The notes below the pieces were generated by a model. The model worked only from the letters and a program-made list of their open reading frames with translations. It searched no databases and had not been told where the DNA came from. From the IMG/VR virus record IMGVR_UViG_3300032116_001426, positions 1 through 22,325 of that record: a DNA stretch of 22,325 bases, one strand, 5' to 3'. The DNA comes from a virus. The position numbers were made by a program, and so were the translations under genes. Within the stretch, counting starts at the first letter, position 1; every line of letters begins with the position of its first letter. Positions 4,589 through 21,579 of this stretch are shown one piece after another.

Positions 4589-5950
4589 TTATTCTTTAAT
4601 AGCTGTGTTTCCAGTAGATTCTAACCAGCTGTTCATTGCCGCCTCGAAAAGGGCAATAAGTGGGTTAGTGGCAATACCGGTAGAGTAACGTGGTATCAAA
4701 ACAACTTCGCGCTTAGGCGCATAAACCAAGGAGTTAATATCTGGGTTAGATGTAGTTCCGTGGTTTATTACATAGGTGTTATAAACTGTACCATCTACAA
4801 TTGGTGATGGGAAATTGATAACTGGATCAGTAGTGTGTTTCTGTGTGTACTTACGCTGACCAGCAGTATTCTTATACCACAGATCAAGTTGACGAGAAAA
4901 TCCTTGACCTTCATCGAGGTTAGTAAAAGAAGCGCATTGTACAGTGTTAAAATCAAAACCAGAAGGAAGTCCTACTTGAAGGTTAACTTTAACTTGAGGA
5001 ATCCAATCTTCGTAAACTGGCTTGTGGTCAAGAGCTACGAACATCAGACCAGAAATCAAACCACCAGTAGCGCTAGCAGCACTAGCCAGATCTATAGTGT
5101 AAACATAAGAAGTGGCTGGAGTGAAACCTGAATTAGTTGCTGCGTTAACTATAGAAGTCAACATGGCTTGCGTAAGAGTGATTGAACGTACGATTCCTTT
5201 GTAATTAAATACGGCTAAAGTTGAACCTGCAGTAAGTGAGTCGATTGCTGTACCATTAGTAGCTACAGTTCCAATACCAAGAGCAATTACTGGAGAAGTT
5301 CCACGATAGCGGTTGAAAGAAAGAAACGCACTAGAGTTGCGGTTTACTTCGTAACCAAGATTGGTGAGAATGTAATCAATTTTAAGATCGTTGTTAAAAC
5401 CAACTGCCCAATTTGGTGTAGTTGTAGAAACAGTCAGGTTAGCAGATTGAACTTGTGTAGCCATCAGTTCATCGTAACGACGTGAACGGAAACCAATGTT
5501 CAAACGATATTCAGTGCTGTTAAGTGTGTTTACTGCAGCTGCTGCGTTTGTACTAGGAGCACCTACTACCCATACATTATGAGCATCAAGGCGATAAGCC
5601 TGTTTAGTAACAATTATATTATTTTGACGACCGCTTATATCCTGGGTCTTCTCAAACGGACGGACCCACAGCGGATAAGTAGCTGAAGATCCGACAACGT
5701 TTGCAGAATATTGTGTGCCTTGGTAAATACCAATTACTGGTGCTTCTGTAAAAGTAGGGGTAGCGTCTGTGAAACTGTTCATAGCAATTCCGCCGTAAGG
5801 AGAAACAGAAACGATACCAAGCTGACCATCAGCAAGGTTAATGTTACCGTTAGAACCTACCAAAGTTCCTGATGTAGGAAGAGCGCCTTGTGCTGCTTTA
5901 GCAACAACAAAAGTTTCAACACCGCGTTTTTGTGAATTTGTCGGGATCAT
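4589..5950 (-). CDS. Probable virion structural protein, 453 aa, family not identified
   Basis: This is a likely structural protein, judged from position and composition; I cannot name the family. It starts MIPTNSQKRGVETFVV and is rich in Ala, Thr, Ser, Asn and Val with many short predicted beta segments. It ends in an amphipathic, probably helical tail ('NPLIALFEAAMNSWLES'). There is no signal peptide, membrane segment or enzymatic motif. Trp codons are all TGG. It follows the neck-ring gene by 13 bp and is the last gene before the terminator, so it is transcribed with the head genes. Its length would suit a tail tube, an auxiliary capsid or a head-fibre subunit. Base use is less AT-rich than the fibre genes, like the major capsid gene, which suggests high expression. 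Confidence 0.6.
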   Translation of the reverse strand: MIPTNSQKRGVETFVVAKAAQGALPTSGTLVGSNGNINLADGQLGIVSVSPYGGIAMNSFTDATPTFTEAPVIGIYQGTQYSANVVGSSATYPLWVRPFEKTQDISGRQNNIIVTKQAYRLDAHNVWVVGAPSTNAAAAVNTLNSTEYRLNIGFRSRRYDELMATQVQSANLTVSTTTPNWAVGFNNDLKIDYILTNLGYEVNRNSSAFLSFNRYRGTSPVIALGIGTVATNGTAIDSLTAGSTLAVFNYKGIVRSITLTQAMLTSIVNAATNSGFTPATSYVYTIDLASAASATGGLISGLMFVALDHKPVYEDWIPQVKVNLQVGLPSGFDFNTVQCASFTNLDEGQGFSRQLDLWYKNTAGQRKYTQKHTTDPVINFPSPIVDGTVYNTYVINHGTTSNPDINSLVYAPKREVVLIPRYSTGIATNPLIALFEAAMNSWLESTGNTAIKE

Positions 5951-10900: not shown

Positions 10901-13321
10901 CTATTTAGATGATTTTCTAGCTTTTATTTTAAGGTCTTTTTCTTTTAGATCTGATTCTTTTTCAAATTTCTTTTCAGCTAAATCAAGCTCTCTTTCACGT
11001 AGATTTTGATCCGAAATAAATTTCTGTATCTCGAGTGGATCAGGAATACCGTTATTATCTATATCAATATCCTTTTGGAATTTAAATACTTCTATCTGAG
11101 CTAAACGTTCTTTATGTTCAAAGAGCCTGTCTTGCATCATTATATCAAACTGTTGTTGAGCTTGTTGCTGCTGTTGGGCTGCTTCTATTTGCTGCTGTTG
11201 AGATTGTTGTTCCCGTTTAAAGGTTTCTTCTTCAGACTGCCTGATAGCTGCTTTAAGTTCGGCAGAAGAATTCGCTTCGTAAAGAGTAATAAGATCAGAG
11301 AATGTAGCGCGATTTGTATTAAGTAGGCCATCAGATATACTTTTAAGGGCTGAGAACATTTCGTATTCTTTGCCAGAATCTGTAAGGAAAACACCTAGGT
11401 CGCAATTAGAAACATCTTCTGGAGAAAGTTCAAGTGTAGAAAGAGACATATCATCTAACACGTACTGCTTAATAACTGACTTACCTTTCCAAACGTGCTG
11501 AGCAACATGGATAAGAGCAGTTAATGCTTTTTCCCACATCTTAGCGTGGCTTTGAAAGTATATCTCAGTAATAAGAGCTGACATTTGTATGTTACTCTGA
11601 GCATTTGATACAGCTTCAGTTGGAGTAGTTTGTCCTTCTCTTTGTCTAGATACACCGGCTACTTCAGAGATTTGGTTATCAAGAGCTGCAAGTATATTAA
11701 TGTAATTCATTATATACTGCATATTTGACATATCTGTTTCTGAAGCTATCTTACCTCTTTGAGCTTGTCCTGGTTCATCCGCATTTGCAAGGGGGTTGAA
11801 TATATCAAGGTTCATTTCCTTAAGGTAATATAGTGTTTTCTCTATACCAATTTTTGGATCTACCATAGATACATCAAAGTGGAATACCTTACCTTGATCT
11901 TGAGCAATGAGCTTTTTAAGCTTATGCATTACTATAAAGTAAAGATACTGAAAAGGTTTCATCCTATCCATCAAGGAAACAGACTCAGCATTTGTAGCAT
12001 TATAAACTATGCCATGATATCCTAAGGAAACATCATAAGGATCGTCCATAGATCTAAACTGAACTTCTTTAGGACCAACCATAGTGTAAATATCGTGACC
12101 TATTTTAGTAGCAGTCCATACTTCTGGAATATAATCCCAATTAAGTTTATACACAGAATCTTCTAATTTCCAAATGTAGTACTCAGTCTTTACACCATAT
12201 CTACCACGAACTATTTCTTTGGTAAACTCAGTTGGGATTTCGAAATCCTCAGAAACAATAGTAGTTTCTTCTTCACCATACTCATTAAACATAGTAAGAA
12301 ATCCTACTTTTCTTTGGGATACCCATTCAACGTGTGATACGCGCACGTCCGTGTGTGAGCTTTTCCCATAAGATCCTTGGGTAGTTGTATAAGTATCGTG
12401 ATAGACTGGATCATAAGGAAGATTACCATACTTGGCGTTTTGCTCCATTGAGAATTCTCTAAGTGCATTTGTATCACCAAAAGCAGTATCTATCTTCTCA
12501 ATATCTTCTTGAGATAAATACTTTCCATAACGATCTAGTACCTCTGCTTGAGTCATAAATGTAGTATAACCGGCGTAAAGAGATTTTTGAATCCACTTTG
12601 TTTCTCCACTCTTATGATAGAAAAATCCTAGTGGATTAATAACTTCAATATGTGGTTCATCTCCATTAGTACCTACATAAACTACTTCTTCTCCAGATAT
12701 AAGGGCATGCTTAAAAGCATCGGTCTTAATATCTTTTATATCCATTTTACGATAAAGATACTGAAGAATATTTTGAGCAAGTATCTCCCTTCTTTCACGA
12801 TAAGAATACCTCATATATTTATCAAGATCTTTTGGATTAATAATATGCTCTTGATGAACTTCTAAGAGCTCTGGGGAATAAATATCTGAGAGAGAAGAGA
12901 TTGTTTGTTTTATTACAGAATCAATATAATTACGAAGCATTGCGTCTCTTTGCGAGAGCTTTGAACGAACTCCTTCTGCGTTTACTAATATTGTCCTAAA
13001 GTTAAAGGGCCTTTTAGATTCATCAGAAAGAAGTATTTGTATTTTATTATAAGTCTTATTGTAGGGTTGTATAGCATCCTTAAATTGACCTACATCAAGT
13101 CCTAATGGGTTACACTCTCTTTCAAAATCAAACTGGTTTAGTTGATTATTGTAAAGTTGGTAATTTGATAATTTTCTTTGGTAGGAAGAGTTATACTTAT
13201 TCACAACTCCTTCATCTTGAGGAGAATATGACAGTATAGAATCTACCACATCCTTTGCCCACTTAAAGTTACTAGAAGCTTTACGTGAATAAGGAAGGCG
13301 TTGTTTTGGGAAGTTGTACAT
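10901..13321 (-). CDS. Portal protein
   Basis: This 806-aa protein is the probable portal, the ring at the unique vertex through which DNA is packaged and ejected. It follows terL directly, its ATG lying inside the 3' end of terL (41-bp overlap). A helical N-terminal region and a mixed core include 'DKYMRYSYRERREILAQNIL' and 'ISGEEVVYVGTNGDEPHIEV', with 'EVAGVSRQREGQTTPTEAVS' in the second half, a segment typical of large portals. The C-terminal 120 residues are unusual: a Gln-rich tract (about 697-724), then 'DIDIDNNGIPDPLE' (751-764), a Ca-binding-like Asp/Asn loop, then a highly charged helix ending in Lys-rich residues. It ends in TAG; 74 bp without an evident feature precede the scaffold gene. 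Confidence 0.85.
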   Translation of the reverse strand: MYNFPKQRLPYSRKASSNFKWAKDVVDSILSYSPQDEGVVNKYNSSYQRKLSNYQLYNNQLNQFDFERECNPLGLDVGQFKDAIQPYNKTYNKIQILLSDESKRPFNFRTILVNAEGVRSKLSQRDAMLRNYIDSVIKQTISSLSDIYSPELLEVHQEHIINPKDLDKYMRYSYRERREILAQNILQYLYRKMDIKDIKTDAFKHALISGEEVVYVGTNGDEPHIEVINPLGFFYHKSGETKWIQKSLYAGYTTFMTQAEVLDRYGKYLSQEDIEKIDTAFGDTNALREFSMEQNAKYGNLPYDPVYHDTYTTTQGSYGKSSHTDVRVSHVEWVSQRKVGFLTMFNEYGEEETTIVSEDFEIPTEFTKEIVRGRYGVKTEYYIWKLEDSVYKLNWDYIPEVWTATKIGHDIYTMVGPKEVQFRSMDDPYDVSLGYHGIVYNATNAESVSLMDRMKPFQYLYFIVMHKLKKLIAQDQGKVFHFDVSMVDPKIGIEKTLYYLKEMNLDIFNPLANADEPGQAQRGKIASETDMSNMQYIMNYINILAALDNQISEVAGVSRQREGQTTPTEAVSNAQSNIQMSALITEIYFQSHAKMWEKALTALIHVAQHVWKGKSVIKQYVLDDMSLSTLELSPEDVSNCDLGVFLTDSGKEYEMFSALKSISDGLLNTNRATFSDLITLYEANSSAELKAAIRQSEEETFKREQQSQQQQIEAAQQQQQAQQQFDIMMQDRLFEHKERLAQIEVFKFQKDIDIDNNGIPDPLEIQKFISDQNLRERELDLAEKKFEKESDLKEKDLKIKARKSSK

Positions 13322-15521
13322 TGAATAGTCTGGTGTTGTTTACAAATAACCTATCAAAGTCCTTCTCAAATTGAGAAAGCTCCTTATCGGTTATGGATTT
13401 TTTGCGACTAAGATTGGATATTTCTTCTAGACCTAAAACACATCCTATTAACGAAGATACCCTATCAAAGTTGCCATCGAGGTTATAAGAGATTAATTCT
13501 TGTAATAATCCTATATCGGGTATTACATCTAAATTGCGTCTATTATCTCCTCTTTCTTCTAAGAGGAAAGAACGAACATATTGAAGTGCTTCTCATTTAA
13601 CTTTATCGTTTGATAAGGGGTAACCATAAATAATCTGGGGCCCTGTATCATAAGAAGCTTTTTTATTAAAAATAGTAACTGGTTGTCTAGCCAAAAGATC
13701 TAGACGGCGTATTTTATCAAAGTAATCTTTTACGTTACCTACGTTATTCTCAAAGTATATTTTAGCATTACCATAAAACAAGGAGAGTTTGTATAACGTC
13801 TCATTAACTTGATTTTTACCTAGGTAAGGTCTACCTATATATGTAGCAACTATTTCTGAATATCCAACAGTGGAAGGATACTTGTTAGTCTTCATAACAT
13901 AGACGGCAGCTAAAGATCCACCAGTTGAAGTATCATCTTTATAAGGGTCACAACCTATTATATAAGCTCCTTCTGGAACATGATCATCTACTAGTTTTGG
14001 GAATTCGTATATCATAACCGCTCCTTCTACATCATCTCCTTCGTAAGGAAATCTTGTTATAGCAGTTAGTTTAGTATTTATTTCGTAATTAACTCCATTA
14101 TAAACTTTAGCGGCGGGATCAAAAAACAGAGTCACTTTATTAGAGTAATCCTCCATCTTTTGAGATTGCACTTCTGAAAGACGTCTTCTAAGTTCTGCTG
14201 TTGGGAATATATTAGCAGTCTTGGTTAAGAACATTTCTGAAGGAACTATTGGACGATATTGAAGCTCTTTATTTAAAGCTTCGGAACCGCCTGAATCTCC
14301 AGCCTTTTGTTTACGAACTGTTAAGAGAGCTTTTTTAGCTGCCTCTTCATTTGTAACTCAGTTCTCATCTTTATACTCATTAAGAACTTGATAAGCTGGG
14401 AGAAAGTATCCTATTTGACCCCTATGCTCCCATATATCTTCAAACGTTAAGATATCATATCTATTAGGTTCATAAAACATCTCAGCAGCATCAATAGTTC
14501 CTTTCTCCATATCACCACCAGTACCAATCATCATAAGCATACCTGTTTTCCTAAGACCGTTACGAAGGTTATCCACCGTATTTGTGTAAACCTGTTTTAA
14601 GTTAGAGAACATACCTATCTCTTCTAATACTAAAAGAAGAGGTCGAGTACCTTGAGCTGCAAATGGGTTAGCAGAAAAAGATCTATGCTTAATAGATGAC
14701 TTAGATCCCGCAATTATCCAAGCTCCATTCTCACGTTTTTTATACTCAGCAACTATCTCTTTATTAACATCCCAAGACCCCCTGAATCTTTTAGAAAAAG
14801 GAGCTGGATAGGTCCTGTCAAAAGTAGATATTTTACCGGGAAGCCAATCAAATGCATCCCTTGTTTTTTTAAGTAGATCTGCTGATTTATCTGACTTTTC
14901 AGCACCAACTAATATCTCAGCTGGGGAGGGGTACTTTATACTTTCTTCATTATAATAAGTAGCTCCATCAAAAAGATAGTTGTGTGCTATAAGTCCTGAT
15001 ACCTGATAAGACTTACCAGACTCTCGAGATCCAAGTAGCATAAAATTCTGTAGATTATTCTCAAACAAAGGAGCACCTAAGGGATAATCATAGGTTTGGA
15101 ATAAAGCCTTTCGCGCGGGAATGTAAGTTTTACGAGAACCTGTGGAGGATATAGTATTTGGATAATACTTTAATAAGGTATCATCATCTATATCTGTTAA
15201 AAGTATTCTATGAGAGGAGTATTCATCATCGTCTTTAAAGCCAGAGAATCCACGGGCTTCAGTGTAATAATTAAAAAAGTTATATTCTACATCCCTGAGT
15301 CAAGGTCTACCAAAAGACTTTACAGATGAGTGAATAGATTTATTTAGCCTTATTGTATGGAAGTTTATATAATAGTAAAGGGCTGGGGGAACAAATGTCC
15401 CGCCAGCCCAGTAACCTTCGATACAACGCCGTTTCTGTTCGCGTCAAAATGTTTTATAATCTATTGATAGAGGATGATACTCAGGGACTTCTTTTATTAT
15501 AAAGTCTCTGTTATTGAACAT
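13281..15521 (-). CDS. terL: Terminase large subunit with four in-frame TGA codons
   Basis: This is the DNA-packaging motor and nuclease. With TGA read as an amino acid the gene runs as one frame of 746 aa from ATG at 15521 to TAA at 13281. In-frame TGAs fall at residues 26 (15444-15446), 74 (15300-15302), 388 (14358-14360) and 643 (13593-13595). The N-terminus reads 'YKTF-TGA-REQKRRCIEGYW' and then 'GRP-TGA-LRDVEYNFFNYY'. A Walker A-like loop 'GSRESGKS' is at 164-171 and Walker B 'LLLVLEE' at 295-301. The nuclease domain starts near residue 520 with 'GCDPYKDD' (metal-binding Asp about 525). The C-terminus includes 'DGNFDRV'. The start overlaps the groEL stop by 11 bp and the end overlaps the portal start, so the three genes are translationally linked. 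In the standard code it would look like a broken gene. Confidence 0.93.
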
Positions 15522-17782: not shown

Positions 17783-17797
17783 AAAATTAAGTTTTAG

Positions 17798-17891
17798 CAA
17801 GGGCTGAGGGAATCGAACCCCCGCACGCCTTTTGGAAGGGCGTGTTCAGCGATTTTGAAGATCGGTTAGTACCCAGCTACTGTAGCCCCCG
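17798..17891 (-). tRNA. tRNA with UCA anticodon and long variable arm (UGA-reading)
   Basis: On the minus strand the T arm is unmistakable: GGGGG, loop TTCGATT, CCCTC. The anticodon arm has a CTTCAAA loop in a four-pair stem (CGAT/ATCG), giving anticodon UCA, which reads UGA. The D-loop region is AGCTGGGTA, and AGTA/TACT can form a stem. A long variable arm is present: CACGCC, 9-nt loop, GGCGTG. The acceptor pairs as GGGGGCT/AGCCCTT, with two terminal G-U pairs, or as an 8-bp stem with an added C-G; CCA is not encoded. UCA with a long variable arm is the architecture of tRNA-Sec or a Ser/Leu-type suppressor, not of ordinary tRNA-Trp. It lies within the late operon near tmRNA and thyX. Confidence 0.85.
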
Positions 17892-18048: not shown

Positions 18049-18762
18049 CTACCCAATAAGTTCAGGTTTATCAAATCCCCATGCTTCTAATGTAGCTTTA
18101 AAAGGAGCACCTTCTAAATTATAGACTATGGAGAGCATTTCTCTAGCAATTTCTCTTATCTCTTTTTGAGCGTGATCATCCATCCTTTGATTAATAAAAT
18201 TATGAAATGACCGCATATTAAACATAACATCCGCTGTTATCTGAGAATTATAAGTCTTAAAAAATCTAGCTGTTTCTTTAGCTCTTTTTCTACCAAGAAC
18301 TGGTGTAAGTTCTTTAACAGCTTCATGATAATAAACATTCCCAAGTTTTGTATACTCCTCTAATATAGAGAGAAGATCTTTATGGAATCTTTTAGACTTA
18401 ATACCCTTCCAATCTTCTGGTAGATAGTATTTATCTTCTTTAAGTTCTTTATATCTAGCTGACTCAGCATTAATAGAGGATATTCTATGCTTTAATAAAT
18501 GTATATGTGAAGCAATATCCGTAGTAACTAGGAAATGAACAATTCCCTTTTCAAACGGAGATCCATGTGGAACTGGGTGTGCATCCCAAAGCTGTTTAAT
18601 TAAAGCGGGGATACGTTCTTTCTTTTCTGGGGTTAAATCTCTAGATGTAGACGTCCATGCAGAAAGAGCTATTACTTCATCTGAACCATAGTAACCTATA
18701 AGTTCAACTTTATTTGTGGAGGCGGCGGGAGTCGAACCCGCGTCTTCAGTATTACTTTTCAT
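18049..18762 (-). CDS. thyX: Flavin-dependent thymidylate synthase ThyX
   Basis: ThyX makes dTMP from dUMP using FAD, NADPH and methylenetetrahydrofolate, supplying thymidine for phage DNA. The signature RHR-X7-S is present as 'KHRISSINAES' at 91-101, with Lys in place of the first Arg, then 'ARYKEL'. The C-terminal FAD/dUMP-binding segment 'QRMDDHAQKEIREIA' is also present. Length (237 aa) is normal. The start is odd: homology should begin near 'KVELIGYYGSDE', but no ATG, GTG or TTG lies there. The only in-frame ATG, at 18762, is inside the tmRNA 3' domain, so residues 1-16 (MKSNTEDAGSTPAAST) are encoded by tmRNA sequence. Either translation starts there or a non-standard start is used. The gene ends in TAG. 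Confidence 0.93.
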   Translation of the reverse strand: MKSNTEDAGSTPAASTNKVELIGYYGSDEVIALSAWTSTSRDLTPEKKERIPALIKQLWDAHPVPHGSPFEKGIVHFLVTTDIASHIHLLKHRISSINAESARYKELKEDKYYLPEDWKGIKSKRFHKDLLSILEEYTKLGNVYYHEAVKELTPVLGRKRAKETARFFKTYNSQITADVMFNMRSFHNFINQRMDDHAQKEIREIAREMLSIVYNLEGAPFKATLEAWGFDKPELIG

Positions 18763-18962
18763 TAACCTTTAAGTGTGATTTAATTTAAGCGTAAACTAAT
18801 TCTAAAATTTCTACCTCTTGAGAAACGTAGCTGGTAGAGTTCTCCGGCACTATAAGTGCATCTGCGTAAGAGTTGTCATTTATTGTTATCTACTTAAGGC
18901 GTAGACGACCTTCATCACAGTTAATGTAAGCACTATATACCAAATCAATACCAGGCGCCCCC
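18717..18962 (-). ncRNA. ssrA: Transfer-messenger RNA (tmRNA), compact 246-nt form
   Basis: tmRNA rescues stalled ribosomes and tags the unfinished protein. The 5' end GGGGGCG pairs with the 3' CGCCTCC plus discriminator A (CCA not encoded), and CTGGTATTGATTTGG matches the conserved tRNA-like 5' domain. The 3' end has GACGCGGGTTCGACTCCCGC, very close to bacterial tmRNA. Helix 2 is TTAACTGTGA (18915-18924) with TCACACTTAA (18769-18778), one mismatch. A first pseudoknot (AAGG/CCTT with CTAC/GTAG) precedes the tag region, a hairpin GCACT-TAT-AGTGC follows, and a second pseudoknot pairs GAGAA/TTCTC with CTACC/GGTAG. The likeliest tag frame reads NDNSYADALIVPEN and runs on to end ELVYA at TAA (18785-18787). 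Bacterial tmRNAs are usually 350-400 nt. It lies within the late operon and overlaps the thyX start. Confidence 0.92.
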
Positions 18963-18984
18963 ATAATAGTGGTGAAGAACACCA

Positions 18985-19482
18985 CTAAATTTCTCCTTTT
19001 TCAGAAGCAGATTCCTCTAAATCTCCATGAGTTTTAGTTTGACGTTCTTTAGCTAACCGCTCTAAAATAGATTCATACTGATCCCATAATTTGGGGGTAT
19101 TTGCAACCATCTTATCTTTAGCTTCAAAGGTATCTAAAGAATAAGGTATAGAGGAAATAAACTCATCTCTTTCATGTAGCGTCTTTTCCCATCTCATAAG
19201 AGCCCTTTCTACTTTAGTAAGTAGATTATCTTCTACAAAAGAAAGAAGATCAGAGTAGGACTCCCATGAGAAGGAAGGATCAGAGATAAGGTAATCCTTA
19301 TAAATAAGTTCTTGGCGTTCTTTAGGGGAAAGCTCAAAGAACTTAGAATCAGGGTGCGCGTATAAAAATATTGCTCATAAATGTTCAGAGGGTATTTCTA
19401 AAAAATCTTTTAATAGAACTGACAACTCAGGATTAGTAGAGAAAAAATCCTTATGTATATCAAAACTATTTAGGAGCGTCAT
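18985..19482 (-). CDS. Conserved phage protein of unknown function, 165 aa, one in-frame TGA
   Basis: Read with TGA as an amino acid, this gene runs from ATG 19482 to TAG 18985; the TGA at 19375-19377 is residue 36. The context is 'IPSEHL-TGA-AIFLYAHPDSKF' followed by 'LSPKERQELIYKDYL'. I associate this segment with a conserved protein upstream of terL in Bacteroidota phages, where a Trp before 'AI' is common; no function is known to me. The rest is helical and charged, with a Lys/Glu-rich C-terminus. In the standard code only the last 70 residues would be called. It starts 17 bp inside the preceding coiled-coil gene and lies 22 bp before the tmRNA 5' end. Confidence 0.8.
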
Positions 19483-19825
19483 TTTGAGGTTGCTTCTGTA
19501 TCAGATCTTTAAACTCCTTAATAAGGGAAACAATTTCTGCAATAGTAAGCATTAGCTCTTTCCAATGGAAAAGTATAGTCATTAGATTCGGCTTACGTAA
19601 TGCTTGAGGAGCAAGACGAGTTTCAATAGTTACCAATCTATTAAGTGCTTCTTGAGCAATTGCTTGCATTTGATTGGTCTGTTGTTTAGCAGTCTCAAGT
19701 TCTGCTTTAGTGTTTTCTAATTCTAGTGCAGTTTGGTTCATCTCTAAATATATTGGTGATTCTTCTAAAGAAGAAGTGTTTTCTACAACTTTAGGAGTTT
19801 TATTAGCTTTTGGTTTATTTTTCAT
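19466..19825 (-). CDS. Small coiled-coil protein, 119 aa
   Basis: I do not recognise the family. After a basic Lys/Pro-rich N-terminus (1-15), residues about 28-72 form a long coiled coil rich in Glu, Gln, Leu and Ala ('ELENTKAELETAKQQTNQMQ'). A hydrophobic or amphipathic stretch follows ('LMTILFHWKELMLTIAEIV', about 81-99), then a polar tail. It could be an oligomeric structural or accessory protein. The start overlaps the groES 3' end by 11 bp; the TAG stop overlaps the 165-aa gene by 17 bp. Confidence 0.65.
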   Translation of the reverse strand: MKNKPKANKTPKVVENTSSLEESPIYLEMNQTALELENTKAELETAKQQTNQMQAIAQEALNRLVTIETRLAPQALRKPNLMTILFHWKELMLTIAEIVSLIKEFKDLIQKQPQNDAPK

Positions 19826-20195
19826 CTTTAATAATAGCTTCTATAAGTGAAGTAGGTATAGATATATATCCATCAAAAGAAAGGATCTTTGTTGAACGAT
19901 CAATAAAGAATTGATACTGGGGGGAAACAGCGTGAGTAGATACATATACCCTATCACCTACTTGTAAATCAGTATTCTCCTTAGAAAGGAGATCTTTAGC
20001 GTGGGGGGATATAGAAACTACAGTACCTTGTGAAAGATAAGTAAGATCAGAAGCTTTAGCTTTAAGCTTACCTCCATCTGTCTCCTCATAAGTAAACTGA
20101 GGTATCAATAACCCCGATGAAGTAGTAGTGTGCTCTGGTTCCTTATCTAGGAGTACAAGAACTCTATTACCTATAAGATTAATATTAGTTAACAT
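19815..20195 (-). CDS. groS: GroES-like co-chaperonin
   Basis: This is the lid of the GroEL chamber, 126 aa (bacterial GroES is about 95; phage T4 gp31 is 111). The start is placed at ATG 20195 (MLTNINLIGNRVLVLLDKEP), matching where GroES homology begins; a longer frame upstream is chance read-through into the previous gene. A mobile loop is visible at about 20-34 ('PEHTTTSSGLLIP') with the hydrophobic triplet LLI that would bind the GroEL apical domain. The rest follows the GroES beta-barrel pattern: 'SQGTVVSIS', then 'LQVGDRVYV'. An insertion of about 20 residues follows the loop. It overlaps its upstream neighbour by 11 bp and the coiled-coil gene by 11 bp, and pairs functionally with the phage groEL in the same operon. 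Confidence 0.9.
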   Translation of the reverse strand: MLTNINLIGNRVLVLLDKEPEHTTTSSGLLIPQFTYEETDGGKLKAKASDLTYLSQGTVVSISPHAKDLLSKENTDLQVGDRVYVSTHAVSPQYQFFIDRSTKILSFDGYISIPTSLIEAIIKDEK

Positions 20196-20367
20196 ATACT
20201 TCAATAAGTTTTGAGAGTGCTTTTTCTGTTTGTTCTTTAAGAGAAGAAGAATCAGTAGTCTTAAGTAGTTCTGTAAGTGCTTTAATAGAAGCAATATGAA
20301 ACTCTCTTTGTGAATTTACTTGTTGAACAGTCTCTTGTGGAAAGACTGGAGTGTTTTTCTGTGCCAT
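20185..20367 (-). CDS. Small helical protein, 60 aa
   Basis: I do not recognise the family. It starts MAQKNTPVFPQETVQQV and continues as a likely helical hairpin ('REFHIASIKALTELLKTTD' then 'LKEQTEKALSKLIEVYV'). It is coupled to groES by an 11-bp overlap and follows the 113-aa gene by 2 bp, which supports its reality. Nothing suggests an enzyme; a small accessory or scaffold-type role is possible. Confidence 0.6.
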   Translation of the reverse strand: MAQKNTPVFPQETVQQVNSQREFHIASIKALTELLKTTDSSSLKEQTEKALSKLIEVYVN

Positions 20368-20369
20368 AA

Positions 20370-20711
20370 TTAATGATGCCAGGAACCAAATCGTTCCTTA
20401 TAATTTTTAGATTTATAATATTGATAAACTTGATGCCTTATCTTAAGGGCTGATTGAAACAATTTAACTTCAGTGGGGAATCTATTCTTACGAAGCTTAA
20501 TAAAGAGATGCCTCATCATATTCCTAAATCCTCCAGGCTTAAGTACTAAAGAACCTAAGTCTTCTAACCTAAATCCTACGTACCTAATATTCTTATAATT
20601 ATCAGAGATAACTTTAAACTGAAAATAAATAACATGTTTTACTTTATCCTCAGGCATCTTAAGTAGAAGGGAAGTCTGCTTAATCAGCGGCTCTATTGAG
20701 GAGAGTAACAT
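20370..20711 (-). CDS. Conserved-looking basic phage protein, 113 aa
   Basis: This basic protein has the segment 'NIRYVGFRLEDLGSLVLKPG' (about 41-60), a pattern like the 'I-x-GFG-x-F-P' motif seen in small proteins upstream of terL in Bacteroidota phages. The function is unknown; the Lys/Arg content would allow nucleic-acid binding. The start at 20711 lies 32 bp inside the preceding gene; Met19 (20657) is an alternative that would remove the overlap. It ends in TAA just before the 60-aa gene. Confidence 0.6.
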   Translation of the reverse strand: MLLSSIEPLIKQTSLLLKMPEDKVKHVIYFQFKVISDNYKNIRYVGFRLEDLGSLVLKPGGFRNMMRHLFIKLRKNRFPTEVKLFQSALKIRHQVYQYYKSKNYKERFGSWHH

Positions 20712-21045
20712 TAAATTCTTTTGTGTTTAAAAGTTTCTTTATAGTGGGAGTGTAATCAATAAAGTTATCTTCATCTCGATATAGATACCCTTTAGAAATA
20801 AGAGAGTTAACTTTAAGGGAAAGATTCTGCTTTGTCATCTTAGGAGTATAAGACTCAGACACTAACTTACGAGCCTTATAAGAGAAGGGATAGAACCTGT
20901 GAGTATCTGGTAAGGACATGAACCTCGCTAAGAGATCAGCCTCTGTATCGGAGATACTTTTATCCTCAGGAGAGAACAATCCTATTACCCTAAGTGTGTT
21001 GAACAGAAACTCTTTCGTATTGTCTGAACTTACATTCATCTTCAT
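20680..21045 (-). CDS. First late-operon gene: winged-helix-like protein, 121 aa
   Basis: This is the first gene after the promoter at 21062-21097. The N-terminal half is helical ('TKEFLFNTLRVIGLFSPED'). The C-terminal half, 'TKQNLSLKVNSLISKGYLYR' then 'YTPTIKKLL', resembles a winged helix-turn-helix, with a helix-turn-helix leading to a 'KGYLYRDED' wing. I have seen similar proteins near terL in crAss-like phages, with no established function to my knowledge. It might bind DNA, for example in packaging or late regulation. Two adjacent Met codons (residues 1 and 3) are possible starts. It overlaps the next gene by 32 bp. Confidence 0.65.
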   Translation of the reverse strand: MKMNVSSDNTKEFLFNTLRVIGLFSPEDKSISDTEADLLARFMSLPDTHRFYPFSYKARKLVSESYTPKMTKQNLSLKVNSLISKGYLYRDEDNFIDYTPTIKKLLNTKEFNVTLLNRAAD

Positions 21046-21061
21046 TTACTTTAATTTACTG

Positions 21062-21097
21062 CAAAGATACGAAATAAAAAGGGAGATGTCAAGTATT
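21062..21097 (-). promoter_or_regulatory. Late-operon promoter, Bacteroidota type
   Basis: On the minus strand this reads AAATACTTGAC, an 18-bp spacer, then TATCTTTG, fitting the Bacteroidota TAnnTTTG -7 box. The start would be about 10-15 bp before the first gene's ATG at 21045. It shares AAATACTTGACA with the promoter near 22.1 kb. It probably drives the head, chaperonin and RNA operon down to the terminator at 4545. Confidence 0.8.
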
Positions 21098-21124: not shown

Positions 21125-21541
21125 GAGATTTATCGAGCATCTCAAGCTCCCCCTTGGGGGATGAGATTTAAGAGCTCAGGGGGACGGATACAGCTCTGCC
21201 CTTCCCCCTTAAAAATAAGGAGGTTAGGGCACCAGGTTTCCGGCCTGGTGGGGGTTTATTTTAAAGCTTAAGGGATGCCAGTGCTACCATCTATAAACGG
21301 TTACCCGATGAAGTGTGGATGCCTCGCCGTATAAGGTATTATAGTACCAAAGGCGTTAGCGAAATATAGTGCCCTACCAGAACCACTTCAATAACATCAC
21401 ATTCTATTCTTTAAAACATTTTCTCCGCTATCGGGGACAATTTCAACTTTCTTCAAGTCTATTAACCCGACTTCTAAACCCAGGGCTACTTTTTGCATTG
21501 GTGCCTGAGGGTTGACACAGAATTCTGATGGATTCGTGCGG
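21125..21541 (-). ncRNA. Candidate large structured non-coding RNA
   Basis: About 415 bp with no convincing gene in the TGA-as-Trp code, visibly less AT-rich than the surroundings and full of paired segments on the minus strand. These include AACCC/GGGTT (21477-21513), closing CAGG/CCTG; AAGTC/GACTT (21455-21473); GAAGTG/CACTTC (21310-21389), enclosing CGCC/GGCG and a GGTA-CTATAA-TACC hairpin (21335-21348); and a CGG-GTAA-CCG GNRA-type hairpin (21298-21307). Further on are an 8-bp stem in GCCC/GGGC (21198-21230), a perfect CACCAGG/CCTGGTG hairpin (21230-21250), and a layered hairpin GAGC-ATCTCA-CCCCC (21135-21177). A promoter lies just upstream. I see no RNase P, 6S, SRP or tmRNA signature. 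Large ornate phage RNAs such as ROOL and GOLLD are the nearest class by style. Confidence 0.6.
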
Positions 21542-21546
21542 AAGTA

Positions 21547-21579
21547 CAAATATACAAAAAAGGGAAATATGGGTGTAAA
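21547..21579 (-). promoter_or_regulatory. Probable promoter for the structured RNA
   Basis: On the minus strand TTTAC, a 20-bp spacer, then TATATTTG (21547-21554), fits the TAnnTTTG -7 box with a weaker -33 element. It lies just after the 91-aa gene and directly before the structured stretch, so transcription would begin near 21541. It is a weaker match than the other two promoters. Confidence 0.55.

Follow-up and report, generated by a model that had tools for sequence, protein, structure and literature searches.

What does a phage keep in a stretch of more than 400 bp that lies between two promoters, at the head of its late genes, and holds no evident gene? The stretch belongs to the window, the whole 22,325-base virus record analysed here, which derives from a crAss-like phage as judged by its portal, terminase, head protein, GroEL and GroES. 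The portal is of the crAss type (phrog_6547, E 8e-106) and shares 26-31% identity with the relatives listed among named phages, the major head protein corresponds to phrog_11589, and a GroEL is also encoded. The late genes of interest that follow the stretch are:

20680-21045, minus strand: VpsT-like regulator, the first gene after the RNA (phrog_16323, function unknown)
20370-20711, minus strand: HU-like protein, matching positions 5142-5309 of the distant phage L109 (E 5e-5) and lying at the same place as protein HU in crAss001
19815-20294, minus strand: GroES-like co-chaperonin (phrog_3188, E 2e-8)
13281-15521, minus strand: terminase large subunit (phrog_6681), with TGA read as tryptophan at four places
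10901-13321, minus strand: portal protein of the crAss type (phrog_6547)

The VpsT-like, HU, GroES and terminase genes follow one another as they do in crAss001 and its kin. The name VpsT-like comes from similarity, judged by eye, to positions 4581-4937 of L109, whose tblastn hits are annotated as VpsT-like, together with the crAss001-like gene order; tblastn with the protein of 20680-21045 itself gave one chance match only, to a VpsT protein in MT837149. The phage reads TGA as tryptophan, since the terminase frame is open only with the four TGA codons read through. Set beside this terminase, a tRNA at 17797-17890 (minus strand, anticodon TCA, called SeC by ARAGORN) points to stop-codon reassignment.

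The genetic code matters for the simplest explanation of the stretch, which is that it encodes a small protein. The earlier note had described it as free of genes, and this holds under code 11, with no ORF of at least 60 aa over 21125-21547. Under code 4, the code that the terminase requires, an ORF of 82 aa is open at 21301-21549 on the minus strand, with TGA as tryptophan. However, this ORF has no match in PHROG or Pfam; tblastn against phage records returned chance matches only (best E about 1), and tblastn in 181 loci found nothing better than E 4.7 outside the window's clade. Moreover, the homologous RNAs described below align across the ORF with indels of many sizes and with changes at paired sites. 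A conserved coding gene, which the earlier note had named as an outcome that would speak against an RNA, was sought and none was found. We consider a protein product very improbable, and the stretch 21126-21543 most likely yields a folded RNA instead. The coding strand of this RNA, for which the earlier note gave no orientation, is the minus strand. Its parts and the two flanking promoters are as follows:

21547-21554, minus strand: promoter -7 element TATATTTG of the TAnnTTTG type, read directly, before the RNA
21126-21543, minus strand: structured RNA of about 415 nt, with a probable 5' end near 21543-21536 and a probable 3' end near 21139-21126
21538-21543, minus strand: 5' strand of helix P1, UUCCGC, paired with 21428-21423 and present in the minimum-energy fold
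21477-21513, minus strand: hairpin P2, AACCC (21513-21509) with GGGUU (21481-21477), carrying the loop motif AAAGUA
21430-21471, minus strand: helix P3, GUCGGG (21471-21466) with CCCGAU (21435-21430), inside the conserved AGANGUNGGNUU and UCNCCNAUA
21423-21428, minus strand: 3' strand of helix P1, GCGGAG, partner of 21538-21543
21259-21416, minus strand: 3' domain closed by P5, UUUUAAAG (21416-21409) with CUUUAAAA (21266-21259)
21179-21208, minus strand: 3' hairpin GGGGG...CUGUAUCC..CCCCC, probable counterpart of the family 3' hairpin (family helix 8)
21139-21167, minus strand: end hairpin of 29 nt, AUCUCA..UGAGAU, lacking a clear U tract; possible terminator
21062-21092, minus strand: second promoter, for the late genes, with TTGACA (21092-21087) and TATCTTTG (21069-21062), after the RNA

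Folding energy proves little here and covariation has to decide, as the minus strand folds only modestly better than its shuffled versions (z -1.69, 3 of 100 as good), with z -0.94 for the plus strand and 0.02 for the homologue in L109.

To find homologues, relatives of the phage were fetched via the VpsT-like gene, GroEL, ThyX and the terminase. Four other contigs carry an identical RNA and are close copies. Compared with relatives that differ by about 2%, the RNA stretch is unchanged: it lies within the longest unbroken run in L010 (20920-21610, 689 bases) and within the second longest in L008 (20920-21565, 644 bases). L109 (terminase 41%) has a gene-free stretch at the same place. For the pair of window and L109 RNAs alone the support is moderate, with a global z of 3.85 reached by 0 of 200 shuffles and local scores reached by 6 and 3 of 200. 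The two RNAs have the 3' motif CTGTATCC in common, which is misleading when used alone and produced the false leads L117, L169 and L149. A pattern of motifs shared by the window and L109 retrieved 23 stretches from IMG/VR, comprising four of window type, L109, 12 new homologues and six non-homologues.

The 12 new homologues represent eight distinct sequences, from which we built a first covariance model, R1, leaving out both the window and L109. Over 85 sources (1.06 Mb), R1 recovered L109 (61.2 bits, E 1.7e-14), newly recognised L146 (40.7 bits, E 9.2e-9) and matched the window at 21390-21522 on the minus strand (31.5 bits, E 3.4e-6), the next best match having 12.5 bits (E 0.66); over 90 further sources (0.96 Mb) its best score was 9 bits (E 5.8). 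A broader motif scan of IMG/VR gave at least 120 stretches, so that the family size taken from it is a lower bound, and 78 of the 80 that were listed were new. Of these 78 loci, all but L381 (E 0.054) are matched by R1, the 77 matches having E-values no higher than 2.2e-4, a proportion that is not from an unbiased sample because the loci were picked by a motif lying inside the model.

A second model, R2, was built from 28 sequences with a larger 3' domain (27 loci of the scan plus L109), again without the window. It matches the window at 21226-21527 on the minus strand (E 1.9e-7 in 162 kb) and failed on the window-type copy in G001 and G002, where R1 had matched. The E-values of both models are rough, owing to a shortened calibration. 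That two models made without the window both match it indicates that the window copy belongs to the family. Blastn against 50,697 phage records gave only short chance matches for the window RNA and none for the RNAs of L275 and L391.

The predicted structure of the family consists of a 5' domain with P2 and P3 enclosed by P1, a multi-helix 3' domain of variable size, and a 3' hairpin. It is strongly supported by covariation. In an alignment of 11 sequences fitted to the model structure, with pairs that are also readable in a MAFFT alignment, 26 of 38 pairs have changed on both sides (shuffled mean 10.9) and 379 of 387 cells are paired (97.9%), and neither value is reached by any of 500 shuffles. 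At least one pair with a double change occurs in each of the eight helices, and all five pairs of P1 have changed on both sides. When partners are slid by one to three columns, pairing drops to 32-53%, with two to seven double-change pairs. An unfitted MAFFT alignment of 28 sequences, which contains near-duplicates, retains double changes in 24 of the 51 pairs proposed by RNAalifold. The covariation whose lack would have told against a structured RNA is therefore present, and the earlier note's proposal of a large structured RNA is now backed by both homologues and compensatory change.

The 5' domain P1-P2-P3 with AAAGUA, AGANGUNGGNUU and UCNCCNAUA is found in the window, and the identical copy in L271 fits both motif patterns. 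The assignment of the 3' domain is less certain than that of the 5' domain: the window's P5-closed domain, which holds inner helices and AGCACUG at 21285-21279, is larger than that of the family and fits less surely. The CUGUAUCC hairpin is present and expanded, and the R2 match extends to 21226.

Could this be a divergent form of a known RNA? The Rfam search proposed by the earlier note placed no family on the RNA: with Rfam 15, the RNAs of the window and L109 have no matching family at E up to 10, the window stretch giving three weak and unrelated matches that all lie on the plus strand, and 19 further member loci have none at E up to 0.5 (seven loci plus those of 12 of 13 sources, the thirteenth, L381, not being a confirmed member). 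This agrees with the absence of RNase P, 6S and SRP signatures remarked on earlier, and applies likewise to the group I intron. Nor is the RNA a tmRNA, of which the earlier note likewise saw no signature, the phage's own tmRNA being placed at 18714-18962 by both Rfam and ARAGORN. This tmRNA (minus strand, 62.9 bits) lies just before thyX in the crAss-like phage of the window, has an unusual tag that ends in VYA according to ARAGORN, and stands in surroundings that are unchanged in L010 and L008 (the run in L010 being 18652-19096).

The earlier note had left a choice between a divergent ROOL or GOLLD RNA and a new class, of which the second is supported and the first is not. GOLLD and ROOL are described in PMC12286853 as large structured phage RNAs of unknown function that often lie near tRNA genes. 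The RNA of the window is likewise large and structured, has the tmRNA and a tRNA within 4 kb, and belongs to a group in which the related phage L231 does carry GOLLD. However, neither GOLLD (RF02032) nor ROOL matched the window, L109 or the 19 other member loci in the searches above, and the recognition of GOLLD in L231 by the same library indicates that the search works. Moreover, R1 does not match L231, whose GOLLD lies on the other strand. The family described here is also smaller, with model lengths of 218 and 261, stands before packaging genes, and has motifs of its own. A divergent GOLLD or ROOL is thus highly improbable.

We conclude with high confidence that the RNA belongs to a family of structured RNAs that is new, lies outside Rfam 15 and is carried by crAss-like phages and by some other tailed phages. 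No such RNA is named in the parts of the literature covered by our survey, and it could appear as an unnamed entry in a published candidate list. A later list of candidate viral structured RNAs, by Fremin and colleagues, may contain the family without a name. Such lists, that of PMC2864571 being another, likewise come from finding phage RNA families by computation.

Several other RNAs and RNA-like stretches were observed in these phages. L231 2859-3254 (minus strand) is a true GOLLD; this crAss-like phage has it on the other strand, some 3 kb away from the VpsT-like gene. A different short, conserved RNA-like stretch of about 155-205 nt occurs at L235 4755-4920, L196 4630-4832 and 13 other places; it has a promoter motif and a terminator-like end and heads the late block in L109-like phages that have no R1 match, and although at first taken as a possible form of the same RNA, it is kept apart from the family because its alignment scores do not exceed those of shuffles. 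Gene-poor stretches of about 0.5-1.7 kb in crAss-like phages (L151 5114-6659, L124 4227-5931, L117 5393-5921 and L169 2701-3566) have no other Rfam match, L169 holding a tRNA, and may represent further structured RNAs. Among phages that bear the RNA, twister ribozymes were seen at L010 442-505 (type P3) and, below the gathering score, at L277 5061-5119 and L417 2368-2424 (both type P1), and two related phages have weak ctRNA_p42d-like hairpins, also below the gathering score (L277 2762-2797 and L417 3813-3848).

Synteny was examined in 48 RNA-bearing records, hand-picked from the members and mainly longer contigs. A crAss-type portal gene is present in 32 of these, including all 14 of at least 60 kb, and in 30 of the 32 the RNA lies 4.4-10.4 kb upstream of it on the same strand, as in the window, where the distance is about 8 kb. 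The two exceptions are G064, with the RNA on the other strand, and G005, which has only a copy of a second type near the contig end. This sustains the placement before the late operon given in the earlier note, the RNA of the window heading the VpsT-like, HU, GroES, terminase, portal and capsid genes. Already at the first homologue loci, HU-like, terminase (26-33% identity) or portal (22-25%) matches were found at nine of 12. The order RNA, GroES, VpsT-like, zinc finger, HU, nuclease, terminase occurs in L285 and L279 and partly in L272, while in L276 and L277 the RNA precedes other genes, with the portal gene further down. Four records of 54-58 kb lack a crAss-type portal; in one of these, L393, the RNA is followed by a small protein, a small terminase (phrog_51), a large terminase (phrog_38), a portal (phrog_156) and a head protein (phrog_1328). 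The genes next to the RNA thus differ (GroES, VpsT-like, several unrelated small proteins), a variety that speaks against a riboswitch dedicated to one gene. A conserved small protein (YTLRIVYD...GEIEHLSE) lies directly after the RNA in L401, L393, L374, L414, L416 and others.

Three close relatives of the window phage carry a second, divergent copy in the same orientation, which lies another 7.3-8.2 kb upstream, beyond the span of the window (G001 C1 19584-19723, G002 C1 32378-32517 and G003 C1 21550-21689), and the second-type copy of G005 is at C1 1846-1985. In L365 the second copy is preceded by a TATCTTTG motif, and after it comes GGGGATACCTATATCT, which resembles the family 3' motif.

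The RNA is not universal among these phages. Of 25 crAss-like records retrieved through their terminase, most of them picked among those without a known RNA, R1 left 24 unmatched; the exception, L146, was already known by then. Among named phages, R1 matched none of seven Steigviridae (W01-W07, gut phages) and gave one weak match in W08 (E 0.005), and R2 matched none of 10 named records, phi14:2 and Fpv1 among them. R1 was also silent in two and in 148 Bacteroidota genomes, searched with strict filters and no positive control. Of 48 pattern matches in GTDB contigs, only L313 passed a loose test (110 nt after the pattern), and by eye it lacks the remainder of the RNA. In viral contigs this pattern picked out 15 stretches, of which 13 were already known and two were due to chance.

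How, then, is the RNA made, and does it act on its own or as the leader of the genes behind it? We examined the flanks of 48 non-redundant members, obtained by reducing 88 at 90% similarity, for TAnnTTTG, which we take to be the promoter consensus of Bacteroidota, the probable hosts of the phages with this RNA. It occurs within 70 nt upstream in 25 of the 48 and is absent there from 23 (shuffled mean 3.2, maximum 10 in 200 shuffles), its reverse complement being found in two as a control. A 5' promoter is therefore well supported for about half of the members, and this count, TATATTTG in the window and synteny strengthen the earlier note's reading of an RNA that has a promoter to itself and lies before the late operon. 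Within 150 nt downstream the motif is present in 14 members and absent from 34 (shuffled mean 4.2, maximum 11), nine of the 14 having it at +47 to +58. An intrinsic terminator is not supported, as a run of five T within 45 nt past the 3' end exists in only nine of the 48. A same-strand ORF of at least 50 aa starts within 100 nt past that end in 41.

The scarcity of T runs and the closeness of the next ORF imply that in many members transcription could run on into the late genes, as it would with a cis-acting leader. Antitermination leaders such as the put RNA of HK022 and the EAR element fold as nascent RNA and load onto RNA polymerase. The chief rival to a separately acting RNA is a late-operon leader whose nascent RNA loads on RNA polymerase, so that the operon is read to its end, or controls translation. 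Like put RNA and EAR, the RNA of this family is structured and closely follows a promoter where a long operon begins. Its same-strand position before the head genes, seen in 30 of 32 records, the 39 members without a T run and the varied downstream genes all agree with such a role. However, the promoter motif between the RNA and the next gene in the 14 members, which include the window and L109, would bypass a leader, and the window RNA has a strong end hairpin. The RNA here is also larger and more elaborate than put RNA and EAR, and in some members the operon is served by a separate promoter motif. We regard a cis-acting leader as possible but rather doubtful.

Two further roles have been considered. 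The pRNA of phi29 is a phage RNA linked to packaging, and a packaging RNA working with the terminase or portal would suit a position upstream of packaging genes both in crAss-like phages and in one record with another terminase family. The likeness lies in this link to packaging genes. The phages here have standard large terminases, L393 has a small one as well, and the RNA is 4.4-10.4 kb away from the portal gene, which makes a pRNA-like function unlikely. The second candidate is a Y-RNA-like role alongside a TROVE (Ro60) protein of the phage, such a protein being reported for the early genes of crAss001 (PMC10136315). In contrast, PF05731 is found in none of 20 RNA-bearing records and in two of 18 records without the RNA (crAss001 and cr112_1), and the chance of such a partnership is close to nil.

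Taken as a whole, we favour as probable the reading in which the window RNA is a member of a new family, made late and acting as a separate RNA; action in trans, taken by itself, is a tentative proposal to which we give somewhat less than an even chance. Host RNA polymerase would make the RNA as late transcription begins, a scheme that fits its place at the head of the late block, since in Crassvirales the host polymerase is believed to transcribe the late genes (PMC10136315). The conserved stretches AAAGUA, GUCAGANGUNGG and UCNCCNAUA suggest a conserved partner, which they would contact and which may be the ribosome, the RNA polymerase of the host, or a phage protein active in packaging or assembly. 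The outcome may be that the RNA sets up late gene expression or particle assembly.

The strong covariation, and a place ahead of the packaging and head genes that stays fixed even between phages that have diverged widely, suggest that the RNA serves an important step. Its helices are clear, its locus can be deleted and a covariance model exists, which makes its function directly testable. In a bolder reading, to which we give a fairly low probability, this family, which many uncultured Crassvirales share with at least one phage whose terminase is of another family, supplies phages of Bacteroidota with an RNA component devoted to the late switch, or to packaging DNA and assembling heads. If true, an RNA machine that is absent from standard phage biology would stand at the head of their virion block.
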